Origin: Candidatus Scalindua sp.
GTDB taxonomy: Bacteria; Planctomycetota; Brocadiia; Brocadiales; Scalinduaceae
Assembly (NCBI GenBank): GCA_030748215.1
Contig: JASMMK010000012.1
Coordinates: forward strand, 62,001 to 126,000
Reading direction: 5' to 3'
DNA: 64,000 nt
Positions within the stretch are counted from its first letter, which is position 1. The number at the start of each line of letters is the position of its first letter. The translations under genes were made by a program, and so were the position numbers. This document shows positions 43,325 to 61,461 of this stretch, in pieces. The notes beneath the pieces were generated by a model that did no database searches, was not told the DNA's origin, and worked only from the letters and a program-made list of their open reading frames with translations.

Positions 43325-43354
43325 TTGCGGTTCTTCTGCGCATATAGTTATATA
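43325..43354 (+). promoter_or_regulatory. Possible promoter for the sulfur gene cluster
   Basis: TTGCGG (43325-43330), an 18-base spacer and TATATA (43349-43354). It overlaps an alternative ATG at 43354, which argues that translation of the next gene begins farther down at 43405. Confidence 0.35.
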
Positions 43355-43404
43355 TGATACACAAAACAATTCAAGTAGGGATTTTTAGGATACGGGTTAT
43401 ACAT

Positions 43405-44028: not shown

Positions 44029-44242
44029 ATGAGGTTTTCGTAGGATATGTTTTTGTCGTTCTGTTCTGGGCGGTATTTCACCAGGACTGAAAGCAGGTTT
44101 TGCGGCCAAAAGAGTACATTTCCCACTCTGCGTACGAGAATTTTTCTGCTTGAAACAATTCTTTCTCAGTGATAACATGAAACCTCGCAATCTTGCGAAT
44201 TTTTTATAAATTATACTATTTATGAGGTTTAAGGAGCATTTG

Positions 44243-45133
44243 ATGTCTGAGAATAAGAGTGCAGAAAGAGTTGATTTTAATGAGTTGAAAACCGGTGGTT
44301 TTATTAAACAGAACCAGAAAGATCTTTTTACGGTTCGTTTGAGAGTTCCGGGAGGCAGACTTGACGTCGATAAGATGGCCAAGATTGCGGCAGTTGCTAA
44401 AAAATATAGCAAGATGGGTTATTGTCACCTTAGTTTCAGACAGTCAGTTGAGATTATTGGCGTACACATAGATGATTTTGATGCAGCGGTAAAAGAGTTG
44501 GCAGCGTTCGGGCAGTCAATAGCGTCATGTGGCCCCAGGATTCGTGTTCCGACAGCTTGCGGCGGAAATGAGTATAACCCTAACGGAGTTATGGATGCAC
44601 AGAAAAAGGCGCTGGAAGTAGATAAAGAGCTTTTTGGTATGAACTGCCCTCATAAGTTCAAGATTTCATTTTCAGCCTGTCCGATCGATTGTGCCAGGAC
44701 AAGAGGAATGGATTTAGGGTTTCAAGGCGTTGTGGATCCAAATTATGAGGACGATCCGTGCACAGGATGCACTTTGTGTGAAAAGGCGTGTCTGGAAGGT
44801 GCGATAGTTTCAGATGAAGATGGAAAGCCTGTTTTTGATAGAGAAAAGTGTGTATTTTGTGGTGACTGCATAAAGGCGTGTCCTACTGAGGCATGGACCC
44901 CAAAGCGAAAAGGCTGGGCTGTCCGTGCAGGTGGAAAACATGGAAGGCACCCGAGGAAGGCAGATAATATTATGCTGTTCCTGCCGGATGAAAAGGTGTT
45001 GGAGTACATTCGCAAGACAGTCGAGTGGTATAATGCGAATGGTAAGAGAGGGGAGAGGATAGGGACAACTTTTGACCGTGTTGGAGTGGAGAAATACAAA
45101 GAAGAGGTCGCGGGTCTTTTTGCTGACAGTTAA
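44243..45133 (+). CDS. Sirohaem nitrite/sulfite reductase-like protein with two [4Fe-4S] clusters
   Basis: Start ATG at 44243 with AAGGAG at 44231-44236. The 296-residue protein has a ferredoxin-like half domain (YCHLSFRQSVEIIGV), then the sirohaem/[4Fe-4S] region. The first cluster motif reads TACGGNEYNPNG, where the second Cys of the usual CX5C is Asn112. The second, SACPIDCART (Cys146, Cys150), is intact. An inserted ferredoxin domain follows with CTGCTLCEKAC and CVFCGDCIKACP. This matches the small AsrC/Dsr-like reductases of anaerobes, which reduce sulfite. The gene directly abuts the dsrE-like gene and sits between sirohaem and sulfur-carrier genes. Confidence 0.85.
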   Translation: MSENKSAERVDFNELKTGGFIKQNQKDLFTVRLRVPGGRLDVDKMAKIAAVAKKYSKMGYCHLSFRQSVEIIGVHIDDFDAAVKELAAFGQSIASCGPRIRVPTACGGNEYNPNGVMDAQKKALEVDKELFGMNCPHKFKISFSACPIDCARTRGMDLGFQGVVDPNYEDDPCTGCTLCEKACLEGAIVSDEDGKPVFDREKCVFCGDCIKACPTEAWTPKRKGWAVRAGGKHGRHPRKADNIMLFLPDEKVLEYIRKTVEWYNANGKRGERIGTTFDRVGVEKYKEEVAGLFADS

Positions 45134-45550
45134 ATGGAAGAGAAAAAATTTATACTATTCTTGCATAGTGGGAATTATGAAAAGCTGTATCAGGCAGTGA
45201 TGCTTGCCATAACCGCCGCATCAATGGGGAGCAAGGTTCACATTTTTCTGTTCTTCTGGGCTTTAAAGAAATTTGCGACTGATAAGCTGGATGTTATTGA
45301 GTTTCCTGAGGGGATGAGTGATGAGGACAGGAGGTTGTTGGAAGCCGTGCCGCAGGGACAACCTAATATGCTGAGGGAGCTATTAAGCGAAGTAGGCCAG
45401 ATGGGCAATCTGGAAATTTATGCATGCAGCGGTGCGGTAACACTGATGGGGCTGGACGAAGAGTTGGTAAAAAGCAAGGTCGACGACATTATAGGATTGC
45501 CTACAATGTTGAAAATGGCTGAAGGCGCTGAAACTCAGTTATTTATTTAA
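45134..45550 (+). CDS. DsrE/F-like sulfur-relay protein
   Basis: A 138-residue DsrE-fold protein (FILFLHSGNYEKLYQAVMLAITAASMGSKVHIFLFFWAL). A Cys in EIYACSGAVTLMGL lies where DsrE-like persulfide carriers have their reactive Cys. The start codon immediately follows the stop of the reductase gene. Together with TusA two genes later it suggests persulfide transfer rather than free sulfide release. Confidence 0.85.
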   Translation: MEEKKFILFLHSGNYEKLYQAVMLAITAASMGSKVHIFLFFWALKKFATDKLDVIEFPEGMSDEDRRLLEAVPQGQPNMLRELLSEVGQMGNLEIYACSGAVTLMGLDEELVKSKVDDIIGLPTMLKMAEGAETQLFI

Positions 45551-45582
45551 CGCGGTCAGTAAATTGGTTTTTAAAGATAATT

Positions 45583-46254
45583 GTGATTCATATAAATCGG
45601 CATTTAGAAAACAGGATGTTAAAAGAGGCGAAGACAGCCTACCCTCATGAATGCTGCGGTTTGCTTGTCGGTAATAGTAATGATTCCGGGAGAGTGGTAC
45701 GTGAGGTCTATCCGGTTGAAAATAAAAATAAGGTAAGGGCTGCTGACAGGTATGAAATAGACACGAAAGAGTTTGACAGGATAGATCGGGAAGCAACAAA
45801 AAAAGGGTGGAATATAATAGGTATTTATCATTCGCACCCTGACCATCCGGCGGAGCCTTCGGCATTTGATAAAGATTGTGCGTGTGTATGGACAGAGTAT
45901 TCGTACATAATCATATCCGTTAAAGATGGTGTTGATGATGACCTGAGATGTTGGCGTTTTGATGTGGAAAAGCAGGATGTTGAGGAAGAAGAAGTAAAAA
46001 TTAATAGACGCAATTTTATAATAGGCTTGTCTCTCATAGGTTTCAGCTTTAGCGTTTATCTCATCTTTCCGGTGATATTTTGCCTTCATTTAACTACTAA
46101 GGCAAAGTCTGGTTTAGCTGCTATAAGCTATATACTTAGTTGGGTGGTTATGGGTATAGGAATTTGTTTTGCGGGCAAGGAAGGTTATGAGCTTGTTAAG
46201 GAACAAATTTTTAAGGGTTTTTTTAGAAAAATGTTGGGTAGAAAAAGAAAATGA
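45583..46254 (+). CDS. JAMM/M67 metalloprotease fused to a membrane anchor
   Basis: Residues 1-130 are a Mec-type JAMM isopeptidase: the catalytic Glu in YPHECCGLLVGN, the zinc motif YHSHPDHPAEPSAFDKD (HxHx7Sx2D). Relatives cut C-terminal peptides from ThiS/MoaD-like sulfur carriers. After an acidic linker (DVEEEEVKINRR) two membrane helices follow (NFIIGLSLIGFSFSVYLIF and AISYILSWVVMGIGICFAG) and a basic tail. Bacterial Mec proteins are usually soluble and about 140 residues, so the anchor is unusual. The start is GTG. The stop overlaps the TusA start (ATGA). Confidence 0.82.
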   Translation: MIHINRHLENRMLKEAKTAYPHECCGLLVGNSNDSGRVVREVYPVENKNKVRAADRYEIDTKEFDRIDREATKKGWNIIGIYHSHPDHPAEPSAFDKDCACVWTEYSYIIISVKDGVDDDLRCWRFDVEKQDVEEEEVKINRRNFIIGLSLIGFSFSVYLIFPVIFCLHLTTKAKSGLAAISYILSWVVMGIGICFAGKEGYELVKEQIFKGFFRKMLGRKRK

Positions 46255-46926: not shown

Positions 46927-47439
46927 ATGTCTAGTGATGTAGAAGAAAAAAAAGCTTCCAGTGGTAATATCTGGTTAGGCAAGAGAGACTTTTTTACCTT
47001 GGCAGGCTGGGCACTATTCCTTGTGACCGGTTTGATCTATACTTTGAAATTGATGGGGCCAAAAAAGATCGGAGGATTTTTCTTCCCTACAGTTCTTTTT
47101 GAACCGTCTCCTATCTTTTCTGTTGGTTTGCCGGCAGATTACGCGCCGGGTACCGTAACAACATTAAAAGCCAGGAAGGTCTTTGTCCTTCGAGAAGGTG
47201 ACAGCTTTAAGGTGATATCAGTTATATGTCAACACCTTGGCTGTGCAGTACATTGGTCAAAGGAAAAGAACATATTTGAGTGTCCTTGTCATGGAAGTAA
47301 ATATTATAAGAACGGAGTGAACTTTGCGGGTCCTGCTCCTAAGCCATTATACCACTATGATATTAGTGTAGCTGATGATGGTAAACTGGTCGTGAATACA
47401 GAGAAGATAGTACCTATAAATACTGAGTTGGTTGTTTAA
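46927..47439 (+). CDS. Rieske [2Fe-2S] iron-sulfur protein of a bc-type complex
   Basis: A 170-residue quinol oxidase-side electron carrier. One N-terminal membrane anchor (FFTLAGWALFLVTGLIYTLKL) precedes a Rieske domain with both cluster motifs, CQHLGCAVHW (CxHxxC-like) and CPCHGSKYY. It would take electrons from quinol at the cytochrome b Qo site on the positive side of the membrane. It is the first gene of the six-gene respiratory cluster. Confidence 0.93.
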   Translation: MSSDVEEKKASSGNIWLGKRDFFTLAGWALFLVTGLIYTLKLMGPKKIGGFFFPTVLFEPSPIFSVGLPADYAPGTVTTLKARKVFVLREGDSFKVISVICQHLGCAVHWSKEKNIFECPCHGSKYYKNGVNFAGPAPKPLYHYDISVADDGKLVVNTEKIVPINTELVV

Positions 47440-47487
47440 TTGTCTTTAGTTCATGCTACTGGAAATTAAAAAGTGAAAGGCGTGTAG

Positions 47488-49401
47488 ATGAGTCAATCAG
47501 CAGTTTCCGAGCAGGGGAATCGAGTTTCCCTTGAATTGGATTGGTTAGAAAAAAATATTCGTTGTCAGCATCGTTGTCCAGCACATATGGACATACCTGG
47601 TTACATACGCCTGATAAGTCAGGGTAAGTATCTGGAATCATACAAACTGATGCTGGAAACAAACCCCTTTCCTACTGTTTGTGGATATGTTTGTCCGCGC
47701 CCATGTGAATCTAAATGTAAACGTGGTGATTTTGACAAGCCCGTGTCAATCGACAATCTCAAAAGGTTTGTTACGGATTACATATATAAGAATAGAATTA
47801 AACCCCCTGCTCCAACTATAGAAAGAAGAGAAGAAAAAGTTGCCATAATTGGCGCTGGTCCTGCCGGATTAACAGCAGCAAACGATCTCGCAGGAATGGG
47901 ATACCAGGTAACTGTTTTTGAAAAAGAATCAAGAGTTGGTGGTATGATGATGTGGGCGATACCGTCCTACAGGCTGCCGCGCGAGCAGATAATGTTTGAT
48001 GTAAGTAACATAGAAGCCCGGGGGGTTGAGATTAAGCTAAATACTCATTTTGGAGGCCCAGATGAAGCGGCTTCCAGTGGAAACACGGATGAAACAGCTT
48101 CAAGTGGAAGTTCGGATGAGCCAATTCATTATCAAATTCCAAACGACAGTTCGGGTAAACCGATAATCAGTGAAACCCCAGATCAAGCGGCTCCCAGAAA
48201 AATTCCGGAAAGTGCAATTTCCGGTCTGTTCAAAGAGGGATACAAAGCAGTGTTTGTTGCTGTTGGCGCACAGAGAGGAAGGAAACTCGAGGTTCCCGGA
48301 GAAGAGGGTACAGAAGGTGTCATGGATTGTCTGGATTTCCTTAAAAATGTGAGTGCCGGTGACCTGAAAAGCCCTGGTAAAACAGTGGCGGTGATTGGTG
48401 GTGGAAACTCAGCAGTCGATGCGGCTAGAACAGCTAAAAGAATAACACCAGATGTTTACATGATATATAGAAGAACACGAAATGAAATGCCGGCTCTCAA
48501 ACATGAAATTGAAGAGGCAGAGCTTGAGGGCATCAAATTTCACTACTTGGTTGCACCGGTGAAAGTAATTGTTGAAAATGGAAAGGCAAAGGGACTTGAA
48601 TGTGTCAAGATGGCGTTGGGTGAGCCTGACAGTAGTGGAAGACGAAGGCCTGAACCAATTCCTAACTCAGAATTTGTAATTGATACAGATTGCATAATAA
48701 CTGCTCTTAGTCAGGAAGCAGACTTGGAATTTCTCGGTGATGATAGTGGGATAGAAGCAACAAAGTGGGGAACGCTTGTTGTAGATGATGGCCTGAAAAC
48801 CAGTAAAGATGGTGTGTTTGCGGGTGGTGATGTAGCATTGGGGCCAAGTACGATTATTGAGTGTATTGCTCAGGGTCATCTGGCATCTAAATCGATCGAT
48901 TGTTACTTAAGAGGAGAAGGGCTTAAGGAGTCAAAAGATAAAACCTGGGTGACTTTGATAGAAGGAGATTATATCCAGGAGAGGGAAAGTAATTTTGATA
49001 GTACTCCACGTGAGGAGATGGCAACAATACCTAAGTCGCGAAGAGGGTCGTTTGATCTGGTTGAGCTTGGGTTTGCAGAGTCACAGGCTCGGGTAGAAGC
49101 CGATCGATGTCTAAAATGTGATCTCAGCATTCAGGTTGTGGCTGAGGATTGTATACTATGTGGCCGGTGCAGTCTTGTATGTCCGGTTGATGCACTGGAG
49201 CAAGTCGATGCGGATACTGGAGGTGACTACAAACCCCATGTCAGTAAAGACGGGGTTGTTGTGAGGCATACTGATGTGTGTATTAGATGCGGTAACTGTA
49301 AAGATTGTCCCGTGGATGCGATTAACATGAAGCGTGTATTCTGGGAACCTAATGAAGAAATTAATAAATCACCTAAAGCACAAGCAGCTGGTAGTGATTA
49401 G
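47488..49401 (+). CDS. NAD(P)-dependent oxidoreductase of the GltD family with Fe-S clusters
   Basis: A 637-residue flavoprotein related to the glutamate synthase small subunit and NfnB. The N-terminal Fe-S part has RCPAHMDIP and CGYVCPRPCESKCKRG. FAD (IIGAGPAGLTAANDLA) and NAD(P) (VIGGGNSAVDAARTAKR) Rossmann motifs follow, then a C-terminal 2[4Fe-4S] ferredoxin (CILCGRCSLVCP, CIRCGNCKDCP). Residues about 190-243 are an inserted Ser/Glu/Pro-rich low-complexity segment not expected in the family. Its place between the Rieske and cytochrome b genes suggests it joins NAD(P)H to the complex, perhaps for reverse electron transfer. Confidence 0.88.
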   Translation: MSQSAVSEQGNRVSLELDWLEKNIRCQHRCPAHMDIPGYIRLISQGKYLESYKLMLETNPFPTVCGYVCPRPCESKCKRGDFDKPVSIDNLKRFVTDYIYKNRIKPPAPTIERREEKVAIIGAGPAGLTAANDLAGMGYQVTVFEKESRVGGMMMWAIPSYRLPREQIMFDVSNIEARGVEIKLNTHFGGPDEAASSGNTDETASSGSSDEPIHYQIPNDSSGKPIISETPDQAAPRKIPESAISGLFKEGYKAVFVAVGAQRGRKLEVPGEEGTEGVMDCLDFLKNVSAGDLKSPGKTVAVIGGGNSAVDAARTAKRITPDVYMIYRRTRNEMPALKHEIEEAELEGIKFHYLVAPVKVIVENGKAKGLECVKMALGEPDSSGRRRPEPIPNSEFVIDTDCIITALSQEADLEFLGDDSGIEATKWGTLVVDDGLKTSKDGVFAGGDVALGPSTIIECIAQGHLASKSIDCYLRGEGLKESKDKTWVTLIEGDYIQERESNFDSTPREEMATIPKSRRGSFDLVELGFAESQARVEADRCLKCDLSIQVVAEDCILCGRCSLVCPVDALEQVDADTGGDYKPHVSKDGVVVRHTDVCIRCGNCKDCPVDAINMKRVFWEPNEEINKSPKAQAAGSD

Positions 49402-49460
49402 GGCGTTGGTTTAATGATGTGGATTTGTTTAATAAGTGATATTTAAAAGGGGATGCTTAA

Positions 49461-50231
49461 ATGAATTTAATCTTATTTTTTATCAGGAAGCTTACGGAGA
49501 CTGAAATGTGGAAATCCGTATTTCGTCATGGCTATACGGATACTCCCAGAAACAGGGCGCTTCAGACTATAAGCAATGTGTGGCTGCATTTGCATCCTGT
49601 AAAGGTTCCAAAGCACGCCGTTAAGATTACGTATACATGGTGTCTGGGCGGGCTAACGTTCTTTATTTTCCTTTTTTTGACTGTGACGGGTGTCCTGTTA
49701 ATGTTTTACTATGTTCCTGATGTTAATCGGGCGTATGCAGATATGATTGATCTGATGTATGTTGTGCCATTGGGGCGGCTACTAAGGACGTCACATCGAT
49801 GGGCTGGACATGCTATGGTTATCACAGTTTGCTTTCACATGTTGAGGGTATTTCTTACCGGTTCTTACAAGGCCCCACGCCAATTTAACTGGGTTCTGGG
49901 CGTACTGTTATTAGTACTGACATTCCTGCTAAGCTTTACCGGATATTTGTTGCCATGGGATCAACTTGGGTACTGGGCAATTATGGTTGGAACAAACATG
50001 GGAGCGGCAACTCCTGTTATGGGCTACCAGGGTCCATTTGCAGATCTTTTAGGTGTTAAGATTAATAACGATGTTCGTTTTGCTCTCTTGGGTGGTACGC
50101 AAATTGACGCTCCGTCTTTATTGCGAGCATACGTGTGGCATTGCATAGGGATACCTATAATTGCAGGAGCGTTGATGATTCTTCATTTTTGGCGTGTTAG
50201 AAAAGACGGTGGTATTTCAGGGCCTCTATAA
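49461..50231 (+). CDS. Cytochrome b, N-terminal (b6-like) subunit
   Basis: A 256-residue di-haem membrane protein. Haem-ligand histidines lie in LLRTSHRWAGHAMVITVCFHMLRVFLTG and near the end in AYVWHCIGIPIIAGALMILHFWRVR. LLSFTGYLLPWDQLGYWA matches the Qo-side segment of the family. The short b6-type form is paired with a separate C-terminal half encoded next, as in b6f-like complexes. Confidence 0.93.
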   Translation: MNLILFFIRKLTETEMWKSVFRHGYTDTPRNRALQTISNVWLHLHPVKVPKHAVKITYTWCLGGLTFFIFLFLTVTGVLLMFYYVPDVNRAYADMIDLMYVVPLGRLLRTSHRWAGHAMVITVCFHMLRVFLTGSYKAPRQFNWVLGVLLLVLTFLLSFTGYLLPWDQLGYWAIMVGTNMGAATPVMGYQGPFADLLGVKINNDVRFALLGGTQIDAPSLLRAYVWHCIGIPIIAGALMILHFWRVRKDGGISGPL

Positions 50232-50251
50232 ATAGTTGGGAGAATTTTTTT

Positions 50252-50974
50252 ATGTCAAATCATGCAGAAGCAGAGGTAGCAAACAATAATAAAACGGAGA
50301 AAGTCTTTTCGTGGCCAAACCTGGTAGCGAAGGAGTTTATAGCGGCAATTCTATGTACAGTTATATTGCTCGTTTATTCGTACTATGTCGATGCACCACT
50401 AAGGGAGCTTGCCAATCCGGGAGAACCTGAGAATCCTGCAAAAGCACCGTGGTATTTTTTGGGATTACAGGAAATCCTTGTCTATTTTGATCCTTGGATT
50501 GCGGGTGTTGTGGTTCCGAGTATAATAATTGTGGGTTTGATGGCAATTCCATATATAGATGTGAATCCGAAGGGAAATGGCGGTTACTGTTTCAGGGAAC
50601 GAAAATTTGCAATAACAGTTTTCTTGTTCGGATTTATTTTCTGGTATGTTCTTATAATAGTGGGTACATACATGAGGGGGCCGTTCTGGGCGTTTTTCTG
50701 GCCTTGGGAGACATGGAGTTTTGATTTTCCTACACCTCCTCCATTGATGAGCTTGCCCAACTGGCTGGGTATTTTTGCGCTTCTTATCTATTTTGGGTTA
50801 GGAATGCTAATACCTGCGGTTGCTTTCTGGAAATTTGCCAAGCAGCTCGGCTTTATCAGGTACAACATTACTATGAGCTTGCTCTTGCTAATGATGGGAG
50901 TGCTTGTGAAGATTGCTTTAAGGCTGATGTTTAACATTAAGTATATATTGCAGACGCCTTGGTTTAATATTTAG
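50252..50974 (+). CDS. Cytochrome b, C-terminal (subunit IV-like) protein
   Basis: A 240-residue membrane protein with about four helices. PANPGEPENPAKAPWYFLGLQEIL-type wording (NPAKAPWYFLGLQEIL) corresponds to the PEWY region of cytochrome b that lines the quinol site, here read as APWY. PYIDVNPKG and a C-terminal pair of helices follow. It lies 20 bp after the b6-like gene and completes the cytochrome b core. Confidence 0.9.
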   Translation: MSNHAEAEVANNNKTEKVFSWPNLVAKEFIAAILCTVILLVYSYYVDAPLRELANPGEPENPAKAPWYFLGLQEILVYFDPWIAGVVVPSIIIVGLMAIPYIDVNPKGNGGYCFRERKFAITVFLFGFIFWYVLIIVGTYMRGPFWAFFWPWETWSFDFPTPPPLMSLPNWLGIFALLIYFGLGMLIPAVAFWKFAKQLGFIRYNITMSLLLLMMGVLVKIALRLMFNIKYILQTPWFNI

Positions 50975-51032
50975 AAATTCCGAAGACGTGGATTGATTTA
51001 TTTTTTTCTATTTTTTCGAGAGAAGTAAACAA

Positions 51033-52142
51033 ATGAAAAAGAAATTATTTTTATTGTCCAGTATATTGTTGCTAGTTAGCTCTCTCTTGTGGGTTAAGGA
51101 TATGTTAGAGCCAGAGTGGAAACAATATCAGGTAGAGTATTATGAGCAGCAGCGAAAAGCAGTAGAGAAAAAGCTGCAAACCACAAGTGACGAAAAAACA
51201 GTAGCTGATTTAGAAACGAAACTCGCTAAGCTGCAAAAACCTAAGTACGAAATAAAGCAGATTCTTCTAAAGGGTGATTATGGTTGGGCTCAACAGAGTA
51301 ACGGACAGAAAACAGATAGATGTATGACCTGTCATATTGATGAAGCAAAACTGACTGCATCTCATGAGACGGTAGTTAAAGAATTTCCATTTGATATTTA
51401 TGGGTGTACGGTATGTCATGGTGGATCGGGTCGCTCACTTGACGAAGAGCACGCGCATCATGGAATTTTCAAACATAAGAGGGCGATGCGCCAAAGATTG
51501 GATCATGCTGATGACCTTTTTGATATGTGGAATGAATTTGCTACTCTTTCTCTGGAAGAGGGTGCAGAATGGGCTAGCTATAAAAATCATACCATAACGG
51601 GTGAGAAGGCGATATATATGGGCAGTGGCAAATGTATGAGATGCCACACCGGGCTGACTGCTCCGCATGTAGAAAGATGGAAGAGGGTTAAATTTGAAAG
51701 CTTTAATGTTATCAAGGAAGCACCGGATTACATTAAAGGTGATGAAGATTATAGAGAAAAATGTTATGAGTGCCACACGACAGGCTACAACAAAGAGACG
51801 GGAACTTACGAAGAAGAGGGTATTACCTGTGAGGCTTGTCATGGGCCCGGTGAGGTATATGCGTTTTTTATGGATAGGGGCCAGGCAACAGAGGGTCAGA
51901 AAATAGCTAAAATCACACCTGCCTATAACAAATGTGGAGGGACTGAAGGGTGTCATCGAAGCAGGCGGCATGAGATGCGGGTGAAGTTCTTCAGAGACAG
52001 CAAGAAGCATGACGATTACGAATGGTTCAAGCCGAAGTATAAACGAATCGTAACTGAGGCATTAGAAGAGAAGAAAAGCGGTGGTGATGAAGAAGGATAT
52101 GACCCTACAGCGCCTAAGCATAGGATAAGGTTCGTCAGGTGA
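51033..52142 (+). CDS. Membrane-anchored multihaem cytochrome c (five CxxCH plus one CX5CH)
   Basis: The 369-residue protein has an N-terminal membrane helix (LFLLSSILLLVSSLLWV), then a coiled coil (about residues 30-70). Canonical haem sites are CMTCH (97), CTVCH (125), CMRCH (201), CYECH (244) and CEACH (266). A sixth candidate is C301-GGTEG-C307-H308, with five residues between the cysteines. The C-terminus is Lys-rich. Placement suggests it accepts electrons from the Rieske/b core and passes them to the octahaem protein encoded next. This corresponds by position to the hexahaem member of the third bc1-type cluster of Kuenenia, as I recall it. Confidence 0.88.
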   Translation: MKKKLFLLSSILLLVSSLLWVKDMLEPEWKQYQVEYYEQQRKAVEKKLQTTSDEKTVADLETKLAKLQKPKYEIKQILLKGDYGWAQQSNGQKTDRCMTCHIDEAKLTASHETVVKEFPFDIYGCTVCHGGSGRSLDEEHAHHGIFKHKRAMRQRLDHADDLFDMWNEFATLSLEEGAEWASYKNHTITGEKAIYMGSGKCMRCHTGLTAPHVERWKRVKFESFNVIKEAPDYIKGDEDYREKCYECHTTGYNKETGTYEEEGITCEACHGPGEVYAFFMDRGQATEGQKIAKITPAYNKCGGTEGCHRSRRHEMRVKFFRDSKKHDDYEWFKPKYKRIVTEALEEKKSGGDEEGYDPTAPKHRIRFVR

Positions 52143-52264
52143 TGTCTGTGAGTTGTTAGTGAAATAGTAGAAAATAATGAGATTAAAATGTTGTTCTAAT
52201 ATATACTTTATGAATGTTTATGTTTCGTTGTAATTTTTGATAAAAGAAAGGGAGGATTTTCATA

Positions 52265-54100
52265 ATGGATCTTCTGAAAACGTGTGCGGTTGTAGTTTTC
52301 TTTTCAGTTTTTTGCAGCTTGCATATTGCAAATGCATCAACTGATCAGGATTATATGGGCTCAGGTACGGGCGAATTAGACTATGTGGGTGCTGAAGCTG
52401 GCAAAGGAGCCTCCGCAGACAGCGTTGAAGGTCCTGGTTTAGAGCCTATCACTAAGAAACAACATGAAAGAGCAAAGAATTTTTATCACACAGTCTATCC
52501 GAGTGCTGCTGCCAGGGCTCTGTATAGTGACAACGTTGGACTAGAAAAAGGTGCAGGACCGTGGCAGGATTTCTATAAGCCAAAGCCGATGCATATGTAC
52601 TGGTTCCCGGCACGGCATTATGTAAAGCCGGAGGGAACATACTATGATCAATTATTGGAGAAGTATAAGAAAGATCAGTGTATTGAGTGTCACGAAGAGG
52701 TTACTCCCGGCATCGTTCATGACTGGAGAGACTCAACACATGCAGATCCGAAAAAGAACAACTTTTTTGCCATAAGGACAAAGCAGATTGAAGAGCTTAT
52801 TGAGAGAGACCTGGATAAAGTTGGTTGTAACGAGTGTCACGGTGAGGATCATGACGAACTTCATATGCCAACGCCGGATATATGTGGTAATTGCCATCCG
52901 AAGCAGGTTAATGAATATCTGGATGAAATGGATTATGGTCGACCTAACCATGTGGACACCTTTACGGCTAATGTTGTGCCGCCTTGGTATCCTGAAGCAG
53001 CAAGACAGGGCTATTTAACAGCAATGTTTGGCTGTGACTACTGTCACGGTACTACTGAGAAGTGTGATATTTGCCACACAAGGCATAAGTTTACTGCGAA
53101 AGAGGGTAGAAGGCCTGAAGCATGCATGAGCTGTCACATGGGATATGACCATCCGGATGCTGAGTCCTACGGCGAGTCCAAGATGGGAATGATTTATCAT
53201 ATGGAAGGAGAGGAGTGGGACTGGGGCAAACCGCTTGGTGATATAGTAGCAGGTAAGGACTATAGAACCCCAACCTGTCAATACTGCCATATGTATCAGG
53301 CAGAAGGGAAATTTACTCATACACTTGCTGCAAAGGGTATATGGCGAATGGGTACTGTGCCACCAAAAAGTGCAGAGTTTGAATCTTCATTGCAAGCATA
53401 TCCTTATGGTGTAAAGTTGCCGCCATTAGATGCGAAGTTAGATATATATTCAGCAGCAAACAAAAAGAAAAGAGAGCAGTGGATAGAGATGTGTTCAAAC
53501 TGTCATAGCCCTCGATGGGGAAGACTCTATCTGGAGAATCTGGATGACATGATGTTTGAGATGTGGAAGATGCAGGACAGGGCGCATTTGATTATGGATG
53601 GTCTGGCGGCAGCAGATGCCTTTGATCCTCCGGTATCAGAGCGTGATCCGTTCCCGATGGGTGAGGTTCTTGCGGACGCACTTGGCCCTGGATTGCTGGG
53701 AGAGGGTATCTATAATGCATTTAAGACCACTGGAGGTAAAGTACCGGTGTATGGTCCAATACTAGGTGTGTATTCAGTCTTTATGGCAGGAAAAAACAAT
53801 CCTTCACGTATTGAGAACCTGTATACCAACATGTGGTTTGGTGATAAAGCGCATGCTTACAAAGGTACTGCCCACGTTCAGCAGGATATATCATGGTGGT
53901 ATGGTGCTTCGAAGGTATTCCAGGCTGTGAACGAAATGGAATCCGAGGCACAGCAGCTTTATCGTGCAAAAGAAGTTGATAACCTTCTTGGTAAAAAAGA
54001 TAGAAAAAGATCAGCAGGAATGGTAGGCGGTATTATTGTGTTTGCCGGTCTTTTACTTGTAGGGGTTGTAGTAGCAGTCAGGATGAGAAAGAAGGATTAA
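52265..54100 (+). CDS. Octahaem hydroxylamine oxidoreductase-like protein with C-terminal membrane anchor
   Basis: A 611-residue protein with a signal peptide (residues 1-25), then eight CxxCH sites: CIECH (139), CNECH, CGNCH, CDYCH, CDICH, CMSCH, CQYCH and CSNCH (410). The spacing fits the HAO family, including the CSNCHSPRWGRLYLE segment. A C-terminal helix (GGIIVFAGLLLVGVVVAV) anchors it. I cannot tell from the sequence whether the crosslinking Tyr of P460 haem is present, so oxidative or reductive activity is open. Its position as last gene of the Rieske/b cluster matches the known anammox arrangement (kuste4569-4574 in Kuenenia, from memory). GGGAGG precedes the ATG. Confidence 0.93.
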   Translation: MDLLKTCAVVVFFSVFCSLHIANASTDQDYMGSGTGELDYVGAEAGKGASADSVEGPGLEPITKKQHERAKNFYHTVYPSAAARALYSDNVGLEKGAGPWQDFYKPKPMHMYWFPARHYVKPEGTYYDQLLEKYKKDQCIECHEEVTPGIVHDWRDSTHADPKKNNFFAIRTKQIEELIERDLDKVGCNECHGEDHDELHMPTPDICGNCHPKQVNEYLDEMDYGRPNHVDTFTANVVPPWYPEAARQGYLTAMFGCDYCHGTTEKCDICHTRHKFTAKEGRRPEACMSCHMGYDHPDAESYGESKMGMIYHMEGEEWDWGKPLGDIVAGKDYRTPTCQYCHMYQAEGKFTHTLAAKGIWRMGTVPPKSAEFESSLQAYPYGVKLPPLDAKLDIYSAANKKKREQWIEMCSNCHSPRWGRLYLENLDDMMFEMWKMQDRAHLIMDGLAAADAFDPPVSERDPFPMGEVLADALGPGLLGEGIYNAFKTTGGKVPVYGPILGVYSVFMAGKNNPSRIENLYTNMWFGDKAHAYKGTAHVQQDISWWYGASKVFQAVNEMESEAQQLYRAKEVDNLLGKKDRKRSAGMVGGIIVFAGLLLVGVVVAVRMRKKD

Positions 54101-54150
54101 AATAATAGAGTAATTATGAAGAATTACATACTATTCAGAATAAAAAGAGA

Positions 54151-54179
54151 GGCGCTCGATTTCGAGCGCCTTTTTTTTT
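54151..54179 (+). terminator. Strong rho-independent terminator
   Basis: The perfect 9-bp GC-rich stem GGCGCTCGA / TCGAGCGCC (54151-54170) with a 2-base loop is followed by nine T (54171-54179). It ends the Rieske/b operon 50 bases after the HAO-like gene. Confidence 0.93.
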
Positions 54180-54347: not shown

Positions 54348-55727
54348 ATGTATAATAAATTGTTACTCAAGAACGGTTCTAAGATTGCAATAATAGGCGG
54401 TGGGCCTGGAGGAAGTTTTTTTGCGCATTTTGCTTCACGGTATGCGAAAGAAGCGGGTATTGATGTATCTGTAAAGATATATGACAAGAAGAGCTTCCGC
54501 CAGAGAGGTCCATGTGGTTGTAATATGTGTGCAGGGGTCATTTCTGAAAATCTTTTTAATGGCCTGGAAGAAGAGGAAATAAATATTGCAGATTTCTGCG
54601 TACAAAGAAAAATAGAAGGGTATTGTTTCAAAACTCAGGATGAGAGCGTAGTTCTTCATCATCCTGTGCCGGGACACATACCAAAGATTGTTACAGTATT
54701 TAGAGGAAATGGACCTTTGCAGTCAGAACACGATGGCAATGTCAGTTTTGACGACTATCTTTTGAACCATGTAAAAGAGCAGGGAGTAGAGATAATTTCC
54801 GAAGTAGTTAAGGATTTTGAGTTGCCGGATAGAAAGGGAGATCCGGTAAAAGTAATTTGTGGTGCTGGAAATTCTAAAAGTGAATTTGAGGCTGACCTTG
54901 TAGTAGGTGCTTTTGGCGTAAATACCGGAATGATGGAAAAAGTGGGTAATATGGGTTTTGGATATAAACCACCAAGGACAGTCCGAACATGTCAGTGTGA
55001 AATAATGCTTAGCCAGGAGCATATTGAAAAAACATTTGGTAATAATGTTTTTGTTTTTGCTTTAGGCAAAAGTGAGCTTAAATTTGCATCTATTACGCCA
55101 AAGGCGGACTATGTTACTGTTAATTTAGTAGGGAGAAAAGATTTAACAAGAAACAACTTGATTGACTTTCTTAAACATCCGGCAGTAAAGAATTTAATGC
55201 CGGAAAAATGGGAAATTCCTGATAACTTTTGTATGTGTATCTCTAAGATTCCCATAACTTATGCAAAGCATCCATTTGCAGACAGGGTTGTTGTTTTAGG
55301 GGATGCAAGTATTTCAAGATCCTATAAAAGCGGGATTGAGTCTGCTTTTAACATGGCAAAGATGTCTGCTTATACGGCATTTAAAAATGGAGTATCGGCA
55401 AGTTCATTTATGAATGGTTATTTTAAACCGGCAAAAAAGCTTGTGGCCAGAGACAACTTTTACGGAATTATGATGCTCAAAATTAATGATTACATATCAT
55501 CTAACAGAGAATTAGCAAATAGACAAGTAAGACTTGTAAGATCCGCTGAAGATACAAAAACTGCAAGTCAGATTAATGAGATACTATGGAATATGCTTAC
55601 AGGAAATGTACCATATAAAGAAATATTTATTAAAGCAATGAGCTTGCGCCTAATATCTAAAACGTTGCCGTTTAGTCCTCTTTCGTGGATAAGGGATGAG
55701 AGTAGGAATTCTAGCAACGTTAAATAA
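54348..55727 (+). CDS. Geranylgeranyl-reductase-like FAD oxidoreductase, single module
   Basis: A 459-residue flavoprotein. The start at 54348 (AGGAAG at 54332-54337) gives MYNKLLLKNGSKIAIIGGGPGGSFF, aligned with the start of the next gene. The FAD motif is GGGPGGS, and the second FAD motif is VVVLGDASIS (Asp319). A CGCNMCAGVIS segment (residues about 55-65) corresponds to the Cys-containing loop of geranylgeranyl reductases. The C-terminal part is helical and basic. Family members reduce isoprenoid double bonds or hydroxylate aromatic rings; the substrate is unknown. It is cotranscribed with the tandem homologue 15 bp downstream. Confidence 0.82.
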   Translation: MYNKLLLKNGSKIAIIGGGPGGSFFAHFASRYAKEAGIDVSVKIYDKKSFRQRGPCGCNMCAGVISENLFNGLEEEEINIADFCVQRKIEGYCFKTQDESVVLHHPVPGHIPKIVTVFRGNGPLQSEHDGNVSFDDYLLNHVKEQGVEIISEVVKDFELPDRKGDPVKVICGAGNSKSEFEADLVVGAFGVNTGMMEKVGNMGFGYKPPRTVRTCQCEIMLSQEHIEKTFGNNVFVFALGKSELKFASITPKADYVTVNLVGRKDLTRNNLIDFLKHPAVKNLMPEKWEIPDNFCMCISKIPITYAKHPFADRVVVLGDASISRSYKSGIESAFNMAKMSAYTAFKNGVSASSFMNGYFKPAKKLVARDNFYGIMMLKINDYISSNRELANRQVRLVRSAEDTKTASQINEILWNMLTGNVPYKEIFIKAMSLRLISKTLPFSPLSWIRDESRNSSNVK

Positions 55728-55742
55728 GGAATAGATTATCAA

Positions 55743-58475
55743 ATGAAAGATAGGGATTACTTTCTGAAAGATGGTTCAAAAATTGCCATAGTCGGTGGTG
55801 GGCCGGCTGGAAGCTTTTTTGCACATTTTGTGTTAAAAAATGCTAAGCAAAGAGGGATAAATGTTGATATTACTATTTTCGAGGGAAAAAGCTTTTGTCA
55901 AAAGGGGCCTCGGGGATGCAATATGTGTCCGGGAGTTATATCAGAAAAGCTTTATGGAGAATTAAAGGAAAATGATATGCTTCCGCCGGATCGATGTGTG
56001 CAGAAGGAGATCAAAGGTTACTATTTCCATACTCATGATGGCTGTGTGGAAGTTAAGAATCCTAAACCGTCTGCAGACAAAAAAATATTAACTGTTTATA
56101 GAGGTGATGGACCAATGTTTTCATCACAATCTATTAGTACAAGTTTTGACAATTTTCTATTAAACCATGTAGAAGGTATGGGGGCTAACATAAGTTCTGA
56201 TATCGTAAGTAACATTATTTTGCCATCAAATAAGAAGGAACAAATAAAAGTATATTTTGGTAAGAAGGGCTCCTGGAGAGTAATGAATGCCGATTTGGTG
56301 GTAGGCGCGTTTGGGTTGAATACCGGTATGCTGGAAAAAGTAAAGAGAATGGAAATTGGCTATATACCGCCCAAAACTGTTAGAGCTTGCCAGGCAGAGA
56401 TTTATGTAGGCGGCAGGAATGGAAGTAAATATACTGATAATTGTATAGACGTTTTTTCGCTAGGAATAAAACAGATTACGTATGCCTCTTTCACACCAAG
56501 AGGAGACTATTTAACTGTTACACTGGTTGGTAATACTGATTTGAACAAGGCTCATCTGATAGAATTTCTTAACCATCCTATTGTGCGCCGCACTTTTCCA
56601 CAGGAAGGTTGGAAGTTGCCAAAGAACTTTTGTATCTGTTTTCCCAAGATAAATATTACGCAGGCCAAGAACCCGTTTGCTGATAGATTCGTTGTTGTGG
56701 GCAGCGCGGGCATTTCGAGATATTACAAGCACGGTATTGAGTCCGCATTTATTACTTCCAGGATAGCGGCAAATAGTGTGTTTGAATCCGGTGTCTCTGA
56801 AAACGCTCTCAGAACAGGTTATTATAAACCGGCAATGAAGATTTTAGGATCTGACAGCACGTATGGAAGATGGGTCTTTAGTCTTAACGATTATATTACC
56901 TCCAGAAAGAGTATTTCGGCCGGCTATTTTTCATTCCTTAAGTCAGAAAAGAAAAAACCTGTTGCCAAAATTCAGTTGGAATTTTTATGGAATATGTTTA
57001 CGGGAAGTATACCATTTAAGAAATTATTTATAAAGGTATTCGATCCCGCATTGCAGTTAAGATTATTACCTGTAACCGTGACTGTATGGACTCAGCAGAT
57101 ACTTGGATCTGCTGTTGGTGGTGGCAAATTAAGACGCGAGAGGGTATTAAAGAGTTTTGCCGATAAAGGGCTTGGCCCTCTTGAGGATGGTCAGACAGTG
57201 GTTGTTATAGGAGGAGGTCCAGGTGGGACGAGTTGTGCAATTACGCTTAGCAGATTGGCAAAAAGACGTAACATCGATTTGGATATAGTATTGTATGAAG
57301 GTAAAGATTTTGGAAAAGATGAACAGTTTAATCCATGTGTAGGTGTGCTGTCTCCACCTGTTGAAGAGATATTAGAAAAGAAATTAGAAGTTCCGTTTCC
57401 ACATGAACTTGTATTGGAGAAAATACCGGCTTATTATCTGCATTCTGATGACGAAGACATAAAGCTGGAAGGCAATGGAGAGGAATCATGTGCGGTGAAT
57501 AGAATGTTATTTGATAATTATCTTTTGCATTGTGCTAAAGATGCAGGAGTAAAAATAATACATGGCAGAATAACAAATATTGATATTGAGCCCAGCGGTG
57601 TAATGGTTTATAGCGAAAAGGATAATAGACGTGCAGATGTTGTTGTAGGCGCGTTTGGTCTGGATGAAGGGGCTTGTAAAGTTTTTGAAAAGGCAACTCG
57701 TTATCGAACAGGCCACTATATGAGTACTATTTTAACCAAGTTTTATCCGGAAAAGGAAGAAATGGAAAAATTTGGAAATGCTATACATGCATTTCTTCCC
57801 TCATTGAGGGGAATAGAGTTTGGTGCCATAACTCCCAAAATCGATCATTTTGATATTAACATTGCCGGTTCAAAAATTAATTGGCGTTGGATGGATAACT
57901 TTCTTTTAATGCCTCAGGTTACCAAGGTTTTACCATCTAATTTTGCTATGCAGAGGCACGATTTATTTTATAGCCGTTGGCAGTTTCCGACTTCTCCTGC
58001 AAAAAACCTCTTTGGGGATAGATATGTCACAGTAGGAGATGCTGCAGGTATTATTCGTGCATTTAAGGGGAAAGGCGTGAATACTGCCTGTTTGACAGGG
58101 ATAAGGGCAGCAGAGGTCATGGTGGACGATGGTATATCAAAAGAAGCTTTTAAGGATTATTATAATAGCTTTTCGTATATAACCGGTGATCTTCCGTATG
58201 GAAAAGTCATTAGAATGCTTGCCGGATTCAGCGCACATTATGGGCTCTTTACCCCCATGATTAAATTGGCAAAGGAAGATAAGGAATTTAGAACAGCTTT
58301 TTTCGAATCTGTTGCAGGCAGCAAGATGTTTAAAGAAATAATTTATGAAACTATTAGCTTGCAATTATCCTGGAAAGTGGTGAAAATTTTTATTACGTGG
58401 TTTTTTAAGCAATTTTCTTTTATATCACGGATAATAAAACCTATTAGCAAGATTGTAACTAATAAGCAAGCATGA
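55743..58475 (+). CDS. Tandem fusion of two geranylgeranyl-reductase-like flavoprotein modules
   Basis: A 910-residue protein made of two full flavoprotein modules. Module 1 (about 1-450) starts KIAIVGGGPAGSFFAHF and has RGCNMCPGVIS; its second FAD motif reads VVVGSAGIS, with Ser321 where Asp is usual. Module 2 (about 478-870) starts VVVIGGGPGGTSCAITL, has NPCVGVLS in place of CNMC and a canonical VTVGDAAG (Asp766). The C-terminus ends in an amphipathic aromatic helix pair (VVKIFITWFFKQFSFI), likely membrane-associated. Module 1 is closer to the preceding single-module protein than to module 2. The next gene, a histidine kinase, starts 10 bp downstream. Confidence 0.8.
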   Translation: MKDRDYFLKDGSKIAIVGGGPAGSFFAHFVLKNAKQRGINVDITIFEGKSFCQKGPRGCNMCPGVISEKLYGELKENDMLPPDRCVQKEIKGYYFHTHDGCVEVKNPKPSADKKILTVYRGDGPMFSSQSISTSFDNFLLNHVEGMGANISSDIVSNIILPSNKKEQIKVYFGKKGSWRVMNADLVVGAFGLNTGMLEKVKRMEIGYIPPKTVRACQAEIYVGGRNGSKYTDNCIDVFSLGIKQITYASFTPRGDYLTVTLVGNTDLNKAHLIEFLNHPIVRRTFPQEGWKLPKNFCICFPKINITQAKNPFADRFVVVGSAGISRYYKHGIESAFITSRIAANSVFESGVSENALRTGYYKPAMKILGSDSTYGRWVFSLNDYITSRKSISAGYFSFLKSEKKKPVAKIQLEFLWNMFTGSIPFKKLFIKVFDPALQLRLLPVTVTVWTQQILGSAVGGGKLRRERVLKSFADKGLGPLEDGQTVVVIGGGPGGTSCAITLSRLAKRRNIDLDIVLYEGKDFGKDEQFNPCVGVLSPPVEEILEKKLEVPFPHELVLEKIPAYYLHSDDEDIKLEGNGEESCAVNRMLFDNYLLHCAKDAGVKIIHGRITNIDIEPSGVMVYSEKDNRRADVVVGAFGLDEGACKVFEKATRYRTGHYMSTILTKFYPEKEEMEKFGNAIHAFLPSLRGIEFGAITPKIDHFDINIAGSKINWRWMDNFLLMPQVTKVLPSNFAMQRHDLFYSRWQFPTSPAKNLFGDRYVTVGDAAGIIRAFKGKGVNTACLTGIRAAEVMVDDGISKEAFKDYYNSFSYITGDLPYGKVIRMLAGFSAHYGLFTPMIKLAKEDKEFRTAFFESVAGSKMFKEIIYETISLQLSWKVVKIFITWFFKQFSFISRIIKPISKIVTNKQA

Positions 58476-58484
58476 GGGGAAAAA

Positions 58485-60968
58485 ATGGATAAAAAAGGAA
58501 TCTATATTTTAGAAGTCTTTAAGAGAAAAGGACCTTTATCTTTAATCCTTGAACAGCTGGGATCCTCGTTGAAGGCTTTAGAAATCAAATCTATAAAAAA
58601 GAAAATGATACTTGTGTTTTTGATACTGGCACTTATTCCTTTGTTGGCAATGAGGTTAGTGGTTTATCCTAAAGCGCAGGATGCATTACAAACATCTTTA
58701 ATACAAAATCTACAAAGTGTTGGCCACAAGCAGGCGGAACTCATTAAAGGTTGGACAGAAGAGAGAAAGGGTGACGTGAGGGTTATTGCGGAAAATCCTT
58801 TTACGCTTCTTGCTTCCAGAATAGACACTAATGATAAACGATTCTGGCGGCTTTTGAGGTATACTCACTATATAAGATACGAGTATGGCTATAAGGAGGT
58901 TCTTATAAGTGATACTGAAGGTACCATTCATGTCTCTACTCAAAAGGGCAGAATAGGCGCAGATGTCTCTGAGCAGGAATATTTTAAAAAGGCGATGAAC
59001 GGAGAAACCTTCGCATCACAGGTATTTCCCTCAAAGGAACTCGTTGAAAATAAATACGGCAGAATGGAAACAGGTGTTCCAACCATGGTTGTTGCAACTC
59101 CAATTACTGATCAAAATAAAATAATGGGTGTTGCATGCCTCAGGGTTGACGTTGAGAAAATAAGTGAATTAATGAGGAGTATAAAGCTAGGGGCAAGTGG
59201 AGAAACATATCTTATTAATAAGCAGGGATATATGATAACAGAGTCTCGATTCGTAACTGATTTAAGGAATGAGGGTTTGATAGAAAGTGATTCTACTCTT
59301 GAAGTTAAACTGATCAACCCTGAAGCGGGGAAATTAACAAAATCGGTTGCAGAGTGTTTGAAAGGACACACGGGTTCTGATGGAGAGGGTTATTTAGATT
59401 ATAGGGGAGTGAAGGTAATAGGTTTCTGGCAATGGATTCCGGAACTGGATTGGGGAGTAATTGCTGAGATTGATTATGACGAAGGTTATATAGAAGTTCA
59501 CAAACTACGTAAAAATGTTAATACAATTATGATTATAGTTTCTTTAGGGGTAGTGTTGCTTGCTGTTTTTATGGGTCAAAGGATGGTGGCTCCAATTCTG
59601 TATCTCACAGATGCCACAAGGAAGATGAATGCAGGTGATCTTACTCAAGAAGTGAATATTCGTACCAGGGATGAAATCGGTGAACTTGCAGTCTCTTTTA
59701 ACATGATGACCAGGACCTTAAAAAATAGAAATGAGGAACTTCAATCGTCAAATATTTTTATGGAATCAATGTTTGATGCCATAAGAGATCCTATGACCGT
59801 CCTGGATTCAGAGGGAACCATTATGCAGGTTAATCAGGTTGCAATGGATACGTACGGAGAGGACATCATTGGACAAAAATGTTTCTGTGTTTATAAAGGC
59901 AGAGACTCTATTTGTGATCATTGCCCCACAATGGAGTCAATTGAGTCATTGTTACCTGCTACGGCAGAGCACTATGTGGAAAGGGACAAAAAATATGTAT
60001 TCATTGCCTCTTATCCTATCTTGAATAAAGAAGGAAAGTTGGAATCAATAATAAAACTGGTTAGAGACATTACTGAGCAGAAAAAACTAGAAAAGGAACT
60101 CCAGGAGTATACGGCAAATCTGGAAAAGACCGTTGAAGAAAGAACAATTGATCTGAAATCAACAAATGAAGAGCTGAAGCAACGAAGCGTCGAGATAGAA
60201 CAGGCAAATGAAGAATTGCGCAGCCTTGACAAGATGAAAGACGTAATGATTCGAGATGTAACTCATGAATTAAAATCACCGGTAGCGCAGGTTCAAATGG
60301 CCTTAGATCTTTGGACTGATGAGGCAAGTAAAGAAAAAGTAGATAAGGAGAAAGGGAAAAAATTAAGTAAAATAATTGACGATAACATTCAAAGACTTAA
60401 GAAAACTATACAAAGTATATTGGATCTGTCAGTATTGGAGTCTGGCCGTGTGGCATATCAAAAGGAAAAACTGAATATGGAGGAAATCGTAATTCAAACG
60501 GCTGAAGGCTTAAAATTAATAGCTGAGAAGAAAAAGTTAATATTAACAACCAGGATTCCTGATAAGTTGCCGGAAGTGTTAGGCGACAGAACAGAGGTGA
60601 CAAGGGTTATTTCTAATTTAATAGATAATGCTATAAAATACTCTGAAACTGGAGAAATTGTTGTGTCTGCGCTGAGAAGGCGCAAGGAGATAGAAATAGC
60701 AGTTAAAGATCAAGGGATTGGCTTGATCACGCCAAAGGGAAGCTTCGATAAGCTTTTTAGTAGATTTTACCAGGAAAGGGCAAGTGCTGACGGTTCCGGT
60801 GTAGGCCTCGCTATATGTAAGAAGATTATAAATGCGCATGGTGGGAAAATATGGGTTGAAAGTGAAGGTAAGGGAAAAGGCACAACATTCAGATTTACAT
60901 TACCAGTAGCCTTTGGCATCCAAAAAGGCGCAGATTTCTCAACTCAGAAATCACAGGAGATCACGTAA
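58485..60968 (+). CDS. Sensor histidine kinase (Cache-HAMP-PAS-HisKA-HATPase)
   Basis: An 827-residue membrane kinase with one helix near residues 41-60, a periplasmic Cache-type domain (70-340, with FFKKAMNGETFASQVFPS-like PDC motifs), a second helix (MIIVSLGVVLLAVFMGQ), and HAMP (ATRKMNAGDLTQEV). A PAS domain follows with an unusual Cys cluster (CFCVYKGRDSICDHC), then a coiled coil, HisKA with DVTHELKSPVA (His594) and HATPase boxes NLIDNAIKYS, VKDQGIGL and GSGVGLAI. GAGGGG precedes the ATG. It is in operon with the flavoproteins and followed by a receiver protein. Confidence 0.93.
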   Translation: MDKKGIYILEVFKRKGPLSLILEQLGSSLKALEIKSIKKKMILVFLILALIPLLAMRLVVYPKAQDALQTSLIQNLQSVGHKQAELIKGWTEERKGDVRVIAENPFTLLASRIDTNDKRFWRLLRYTHYIRYEYGYKEVLISDTEGTIHVSTQKGRIGADVSEQEYFKKAMNGETFASQVFPSKELVENKYGRMETGVPTMVVATPITDQNKIMGVACLRVDVEKISELMRSIKLGASGETYLINKQGYMITESRFVTDLRNEGLIESDSTLEVKLINPEAGKLTKSVAECLKGHTGSDGEGYLDYRGVKVIGFWQWIPELDWGVIAEIDYDEGYIEVHKLRKNVNTIMIIVSLGVVLLAVFMGQRMVAPILYLTDATRKMNAGDLTQEVNIRTRDEIGELAVSFNMMTRTLKNRNEELQSSNIFMESMFDAIRDPMTVLDSEGTIMQVNQVAMDTYGEDIIGQKCFCVYKGRDSICDHCPTMESIESLLPATAEHYVERDKKYVFIASYPILNKEGKLESIIKLVRDITEQKKLEKELQEYTANLEKTVEERTIDLKSTNEELKQRSVEIEQANEELRSLDKMKDVMIRDVTHELKSPVAQVQMALDLWTDEASKEKVDKEKGKKLSKIIDDNIQRLKKTIQSILDLSVLESGRVAYQKEKLNMEEIVIQTAEGLKLIAEKKKLILTTRIPDKLPEVLGDRTEVTRVISNLIDNAIKYSETGEIVVSALRRRKEIEIAVKDQGIGLITPKGSFDKLFSRFYQERASADGSGVGLAICKKIINAHGGKIWVESEGKGKGTTFRFTLPVAFGIQKGADFSTQKSQEIT

Positions 60969-61095
60969 TTTTAAAGATGGAAATTTCCAGTACGATTTGT
61001 ATAGTATATCATTTGAATGTAAGGGTTTGCCCTTTCAGTGATAGAAGTGCAAGTTTTGATTGCAAACATATGAACTAATGAAAGGAGAATAGAGG

Positions 61096-61461
61096 ATGGG
61101 CAAGACGATAATGATTGTTGAGGATGAACAGGCTTTTCATGATCTCTACACGATGATGCTGGAAGATACGGATTATGAAATAGTTCGTGCATATGATGGC
61201 GATGAGGCCCTGGCTAAATTGGAGGAAAAGAAACCGGATTTAATTATACTCGATATACTCCTGGATCTGGTAACCGGAGATACATTCTTTCTTTATATAA
61301 AAGGTATGCCTGAATATTTAGATATCCCGGTTATTATATGCAGCAGTTTTTCTGAAAAAGCATATAAAAATTTGAAGGAAATGGACCCGAACCTTATGTT
61401 TCTTGAAAAGCCATTTACAAAAGAAAAAATGATAGAAGAAATCAAGGCCAAGATAGGGTAA
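61096..61461 (+). CDS. Response regulator receiver protein
   Basis: A 121-residue CheY-like receiver. Acidic pocket MIVEDEQAFHDL, phosphoacceptor in LIILDILLDLVTGD, Ser pair in VIICSSFSEK and Lys in FLEKPFTKEKM. There is no DNA-binding domain, so output is through protein contacts. AAAGGAG at 61081-61087 precedes the ATG. It lies 127 bp after the kinase and is its likely partner. Confidence 0.92.
   Translation: MGKTIMIVEDEQAFHDLYTMMLEDTDYEIVRAYDGDEALAKLEEKKPDLIILDILLDLVTGDTFFLYIKGMPEYLDIPVIICSSFSEKAYKNLKEMDPNLMFLEKPFTKEKMIEEIKAKIG

Follow-up and report, generated by a model that had tools for sequence, protein, structure and literature searches.

Four open reading frames on the forward strand of the window (the whole stretch of DNA analysed, 64,000 nucleotides from a Candidatus Scalindua sp.) encode a single FAD protein (M1), a fusion of two further flavoprotein modules (M2-M3), a histidine kinase (HK) and a lone receiver (Table 1). 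This agrees with the strand and positions given in a preliminary description of the same DNA, which had been made from the sequence alone. The genes are separated by 15, 9 and 127 bp; the first and last gaps are as described before, but the second had been put at 10 bp. The M1 start at 54348 is backed by homologues that begin N-LFLKNGSKIAIIGGG and by an AGGAAG sequence just upstream. A rho-independent terminator lies about 168 bp before M1, the distance reported previously. Pfam domains agree with the earlier naming of the last two genes as a Cache-HAMP-PAS kinase and a receiver protein, and the pair has the parts of a two-component system, HisKA and HATPase_c in the kinase and a predicted phospho-acceptor Asp in the receiver.

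Table 1. Features of the M1/M2-M3 locus and of its upstream context (window coordinates)
Feature	Positions	Strand	Length	Description
M1	54348..55727	+	459 aa	Single GCNMC-type FAD protein, GGR/FixC superfamily
M2-M3 fusion gene	55743..58475	+	910 aa	
M2	55743..57137	+		N-terminal GCNMC-type module of the fusion
M3	57177..58475	+		Second flavoprotein module of the fusion (C-terminal), nearest to FixC/GGR; amphipathic C-terminal helix
Histidine kinase (HK)	58485..60968	+	827 aa	dCache_1, HAMP, PAS, HisKA (VTHELKSP), HATPase_c (Pfam)
Lone receiver	61096..61461	+	121 aa	Response_reg only (Pfam), without output domain; phospho-acceptor predicted at Asp53
Intrinsic terminator of the upstream Rieske/cytochrome b cluster	54150..54178	+		GC stem 54150-54171, then T run to about 54178
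Rieske/cytochrome b cluster, R/b-3-like	46927..54103	+		Rieske, FAD oxidoreductase, cytochrome b N and C, two multihaem cytochromes; context, outside the unit
Sulphur block, further upstream	43354..46254	+		Sirohaem synthase-like, sulphite-reductase-type protein with Fer4, DsrE, JAMM; context

Flavoprotein modules and predicted structures

Sequence profiles place all of the modules in the superfamily of geranylgeranyl reductases (GGRs) and FixC. M1 and M2 are 47% identical and M3 is 28% identical to either; the earlier count of three modules was right, but they are not equal copies. Judged by sequence, the three are homologous and M3 is a distant relative of the other two. Cys58, Cys295 and Cys297 are invariant in all 95 non-redundant M1/M2-type modules compared, where the CN motif at Cys58 had served in selecting the modules and Cys295 and Cys297 had not. 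Arg119-Gly120, Arg324, Lys327 and Trp414 are likewise invariant (95 of 95), and position 61 is Cys or Ser. M1 of the window carries all four cysteines (Cys58, Cys61, Cys295 and Cys297). We infer that the cysteines of M1/M2-type modules lie close to the flavin.

The Asp of the GD motif normally contacts FAD. This residue is retained in M1 of the Scalindua-type lineage and is replaced by Ser, Asn or Gly in M2 across the whole lineage, the motif reading GSAG in M2 of the window. Loss of the Asp from M2 beside an intact duplicate, M1, has the appearance of subfunctionalization after duplication. In a phylogenetic tree M1 and M2 form two well-supported clades of the Scalindua-type lineage, with their mutual branching left without resolution. 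The gene set of M1 and the fusion is best explained as an M2-M3 pair to which a duplicated M1 has been added. The C-terminal helix of M3 is strongly amphipathic (hydrophobic moment up to 0.65), which suggests a tail that docks on the membrane, and the flavoproteins are probably membrane-bound.

Structure prediction, which the preliminary description had proposed for the three modules, gave confident AlphaFold2 models of M1 (pLDDT 89.5, pTM 0.89) and of the fusion (pLDDT 87.3, pTM 0.58). The top Foldseek match of both models was FixC (PDB code 7koe_C), with GGRs and monooxygenases close behind; since these classes score near each other, the fold alone does not settle the reaction. FixC (7koe_C) was also the best PDB profile match of M3 (E = 2.1e-12), followed by halogenases and DGGGPL reductase.

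Distribution and gene neighbourhoods

The window comes from a 2.4 Mb genome of Scalindua type, which among named records is closest to Candidatus Scalindua. Of 59 related genomes, 56 have the fusion or its modules, among them 35 of the 37 good ones; two Brocadiaceae-type genomes that are 96-99% complete gave no match to the family. Fusion genes are undetectable or split in some Brocadiaceae, so that, assembly errors aside, some anammox species can do without the unit; the family is widespread but can be dispensed with. Individual cases are genomes G024 and G044, with no match, and the Brocadiaceae fusion genes at L155 and L166, which are split open frames. A draw from the same phylum gave matches in 20 of 294 genomes, all Brocadiales bar one distant case. 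Beyond this order, the best 80 of 141 relatives kept from an all-species scan include loci from Aminicenantes, Calditrichota, Poribacteria, Zixibacteria, Armatimonadetes and Chloroflexi, and most of 12 non-Brocadiales genomes that were searched whole have M1/M2-type and M3 modules, fused or adjacent. In samples from two of these phyla, 17 of 199 and 7 of 82 genomes had a relative, some of the single-module type. Desulfobacterota, proposed earlier as a place to look, do not appear by name in the best 80 of the 141 loci, and remote members may exist there.

The order M1-fusion-HK is kept in most loci of the Scalindua-type family and likewise in the f3 genome (L046/L111). A search for the same order in other Brocadiales had been proposed, with confinement to one contig named as the outcome that would speak against the earlier reading; the order is present in other Brocadiales and is not so confined. 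It recurs in many Scalindua-type loci, with only 28 HATPase_c matches in the whole 2.4 Mb genome, and is therefore not a matter of chance.

At least four sister loci (L102, L103, L104 and L106) have a longer set, M1-fusion-HK1-RRa-HK2-RRb. The receiver of the window is the orthologue of RRb (88-94% identity, versus 64-66% to RRa) and the kinase corresponds to HK1 along its length. A domain swap between HK1 and HK2 was considered and rejected, identity to HK1 being even along the length save at the extreme N-terminus. As the window has only HK1 and RRb, and RRb follows HK2 in the sister species, its kinase and receiver may not be cognate.

Other lineages have other signalling partners. In some Brocadiaceae (L115, L122) the fusion follows genes for a dCache-HAMP-PAS kinase and for a protein with receiver and HD-GYP domains; these genes overlap each other or the fusion, so that the fusion is translationally coupled to HK and RR-HD-GYP. 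The kinase shares the architecture of the window kinase at only 24% identity. Other Brocadiaceae have no kinase at the fusion. Coupling of the fusion or of a single relative to receiver-HD-GYP at L115, L122 and L136 hints at c-di-GMP turnover in the operon. A paralogue clade, present also in the genome of the window (C61), has a hybrid receiver-GAF-PAS-kinase after the flavoprotein gene. In a separate, well-supported clade a stand-alone cNMP-binding protein of 120-150 aa follows directly in Brocadiales, in the Aminicenantes phylum and in Chloroflexi. The cNMP-binding-protein loci of the GCNMC subfamily are L064, L068, L070, L168, L170, L172, L194, L195, L203, L204 and L210. Among open reading frames at least five genes away in the same loci, the background is 21 kinases and one cNMP-binding protein in 769. 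Linkage to signal transduction is thus recurrent, and neither chance nor a single inherited operon explains it. The earlier characterization of the locus as a conserved unit of flavoproteins and a two-component system that matches no named pathway is borne out, and a literature search found no paper describing such a unit of M1, M2-M3 and a two-component system.

The cluster upstream of M1 in the window resembles the R/b-3 type, kuste4569-4574 (PMC8862662, PMC12954380). Its adjacency, pointed out before, is real but not general: it is lineage-specific within Scalindua, and other species have the sulphur block before M1. A distance of at most ten genes separates the M genes from Rieske/cytochrome b and multihaem cytochrome genes in Scalindua, Aminicenantes, Calditrichota and Armatimonadetes, and such genes are also near M3 in a second Brocadiales family; they are absent at many loci, in Brocadiaceae, Poribacteria, Zixibacteria and Chloroflexi. 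The sulphur block (sirohaem synthase-like protein, sulphite-reductase-type protein with Fer4, DsrE, JAMM, TusA and CysK) directly precedes M1 in Scalindua-type species that have no R/b insertion and, rearranged, adjoins an M gene in the second Brocadiales family. Neither association is universal across the M loci. CysK occurs near the M2-M3 pair at L152 (Aminicenantes). At L152 and at L175 (Armatimonadetes), genes read by eye as haem biosynthesis genes of the sirohaem-dependent type (HemB, HemL, Ahb-like, CysG/HemC) adjoin M2-M3. The second Brocadiales family also has a neighbour of about 450 aa, apparently a RarA-type ATPase, which is uninformative.

Functional interpretation

We tentatively propose that M1 and M2-M3 form a peripheral-membrane redox unit of two flavoproteins that acts on the quinone pool or on a thiol partner under signal control, a reading that we hold to be plausible rather than probable. 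It draws on the recurrent pairing of M2 and M3, fused or adjacent, in several phyla, on the invariant cysteines and Arg, Lys and Trp residues, on FixC as the leading match of both models and of the M3 profile, on the amphipathic tail of M3, and on the closeness of Rieske/cytochrome b genes in several phyla together with the signalling linkage. Against it stand the lack of a match to ETF alpha, the many loci without Rieske/cytochrome b genes and the two nearly complete genomes in which the search did not find the family.

In such a unit, M3 would use its amphipathic C-terminal helix to dock on the membrane and could exchange electrons with menaquinone or another hydrophobic carrier. An M1/M2-type module would relay electrons via its flavin and Cys58, Cys295 and Cys297, with a thiol or a metal as the acceptor. 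M1 would have kept the full FAD site after the duplication, and the Scalindua-type M2, having lost the GD Asp, may have turned mainly structural. The Cache kinase would sense a periplasmic or external cue and, through the receiver, might set the level or activity of the flavoprotein unit, the outcome being an adjusted electron flow near the quinone pool. The unit may act on quinone, and it may either be controlled by signal transduction or report to it.

The modules might instead hydrogenate the isoprenoid tails of menaquinone or membrane lipids, with the two-component system tuning membrane saturation, which we consider rather unlikely. The fusion matches the TIGR02032 superfamily profile with an E value of 8e-34, the best stretch lying in M3, and there are matches to BchP/ChlP and DGGGPL reductase profiles, as well as GGR structures among the top fold matches. 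However, the scores (52.1 bits for M1 and 117.7 bits for the fusion) miss the curated TIGR02032 cut-off of 158.8 bits. The motifs that mark GGRs are an active-site Cys behind the flavin (Cys47 in SaGGR), YxWxFP-X7-8-GxG, and GGG or a charged GEG/REG version (PMC6309074). When the modules are aligned to CGGG-type motifs, the Cys has a counterpart in all three (Cys61 in M1, Cys62 in M2 and the Cys of NPCVGVLS in M3), but it is replaced by Ser in 26 of the 95 M1/M2-type modules. YxWxFP is absent from all 95, which have no Trp at 248 and no Phe at 250, and from M3, the equivalent stretches being FASITP in M1 and FGAITP in M3. In the GGG region M1 has KSG and M3 has KGKG, whose GKG sits where bacterial GGRs have the charged version. 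No prenyl, lipid or ferredoxin gene recurs beside the M genes, and the same genome encodes a more GGR-like protein elsewhere. That protein, the most GGR-like of the genome (G000:C1:4196-5107, L176; 352 aa), scores 121 bits against TIGR02032 and has YAWFS and GEG motifs.

The likeness to geranylgeranyl reductases is thus at the level of the superfamily only; as the name of an enzyme activity, the first naming of the modules is not supported, given the absent YxWxFP and the missed cut-off. The suggested tie to ladderanes or other anammox lipids falls away: the M2-M3 pair is present in the six further phyla listed above, which excludes a role confined to ladderanes or anammox, and a 2009 paper on ladderane candidates mentions no gene of the geranylgeranyl type. 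A literature search found nothing linking Kuenenia with geranylgeranyl reductase; one review of archaeal lipids mentions anammox once. Gene lengths had also hinted at a neighbourhood of fatty-acid genes in Brocadiaceae; this idea was rejected, the genes reading by eye as peptidase U32, TsaD, NnrD, transketolase and an HAD-VTE5-like kinase. Lipid modification by M1 and M2-M3 is neither favoured nor excluded, and the unit looks like a regulated redox device more than a lipid pathway.

We think it unlikely that the flavoprotein is a redox sensor that signals the redox state of quinones or thiols to the kinase, receiver or cNMP-binding protein next to it, as an input to signalling and not its target. 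Partners of different kinds (HK/RR, hybrid HK and cNMP-binding protein) at phylogenetically separate subfamilies would fit such a sensor, as would the overlapping HK, RR and fusion genes of Brocadiaceae. The kinases, however, have Cache, PAS or GAF sensors of their own, outside Brocadiales the majority of M2-M3 pairs lack a signalling gene within two genes, and cNMP-binding proteins could as well regulate an enzyme.

A part in sulphur assimilation, in which the unit would be an electron donor or a persulphide-handling oxidoreductase for the sulphite-reductase-type protein, DsrE/TusA and JAMM/CysK, seems to us improbable. The position of the sulphur block next to M genes in two Brocadiales families and in different arrangements, the CysK gene near the pair at L152 and invariant cysteines compatible with thiol chemistry speak for it. 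Yet this neighbourhood is missing from Brocadiaceae and from most other phyla, and common ancestry within one order leaves few independent cases. That the flavoproteins merely happen to lie beside an unrelated two-component system is highly improbable, the low identity between Scalindua-type and Brocadiaceae kinases and the 127 bp gap before the receiver being outweighed by an order kept across the genus and its family, by overlapping genes in another family and by paralogue loci with kinases.

The proposed redox unit could also be an instance of something wider. GCNMC flavoproteins might be an unrecognized family, spread across phyla, of membrane-docked flavin/thiol redox devices that couple the quinone pool to signalling via interchangeable HKs or cNMP-binding proteins, and a metal site with cysteine ligands (Cys58, Cys61, Cys295 and Cys297) might lie next to the FAD; this is speculative and quite doubtful. 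The family occurs in most Brocadiales genomes and in several uncultivated phyla and has no assigned function. In view of its coupling to kinases or cNMP-binding proteins and of the Rieske/cytochrome b and sulphur genes close by, the family is a concrete candidate for the redox control of electron transport in anammox bacteria. To our knowledge, the regulation of this electron transport has been little explored. The invariant cysteines and the M2-M3 pairing offer a direct handle for biochemistry.

Comparison with known systems

FixC, the subunit of FixABCX that is of the ETF:quinone oxidoreductase (ETF-QO) type (PDB code 7koe_C), shares the FAD Rossmann fold with the M modules but only 17-18% identity. 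It differs from them in lacking the extra invariant cysteines of M1/M2 and the M2-M3 pairing, while the M proteins differ from FixC/ETF-QO in having no ferredoxin domain: Pfam searches of the M proteins found no 4Fe-4S domain of the ETF-QO kind (no Fer4 or ETF_QO). ETF alpha (PF00766) has no match in the genome of the window (94.9% complete); in the control search, 10 of 14 genomes gave a match. A function as classical FixC or ETF-QO is therefore unlikely. The GGR and DGGGPL reductases (TIGR02032, SaGGR, TaGGR) belong to the same superfamily and share the active-site Cys counterpart, but the M modules differ in lacking YxWxFP, in scoring below the cut-off and in having no ferredoxin partner nearby; their GGG motif seems altered. 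Flavin halogenases and monooxygenases (CmlS, PltA, KMO, squalene epoxidase, QhpG) have the same FAD fold and similar structural scores. The halogenase motif WxWxIP was absent when the sequences of P0001 and P0004 were read by eye, and the M genes differ from this class in having an anaerobic host and respiratory, sulphur or signalling genes as neighbours.

The kinase and receiver of the window have the full set of domains and catalytic motifs of Cache-HAMP-PAS kinases with stand-alone receivers. Compared with typical systems of this kind, the kinase is linked to flavoprotein genes, the receiver has no output domain and the sister species have a set of four signalling genes. The locus represents an unusual wiring inside the known GGR/FixC superfamily, and one that is better conserved than could be recognized when it was first described.
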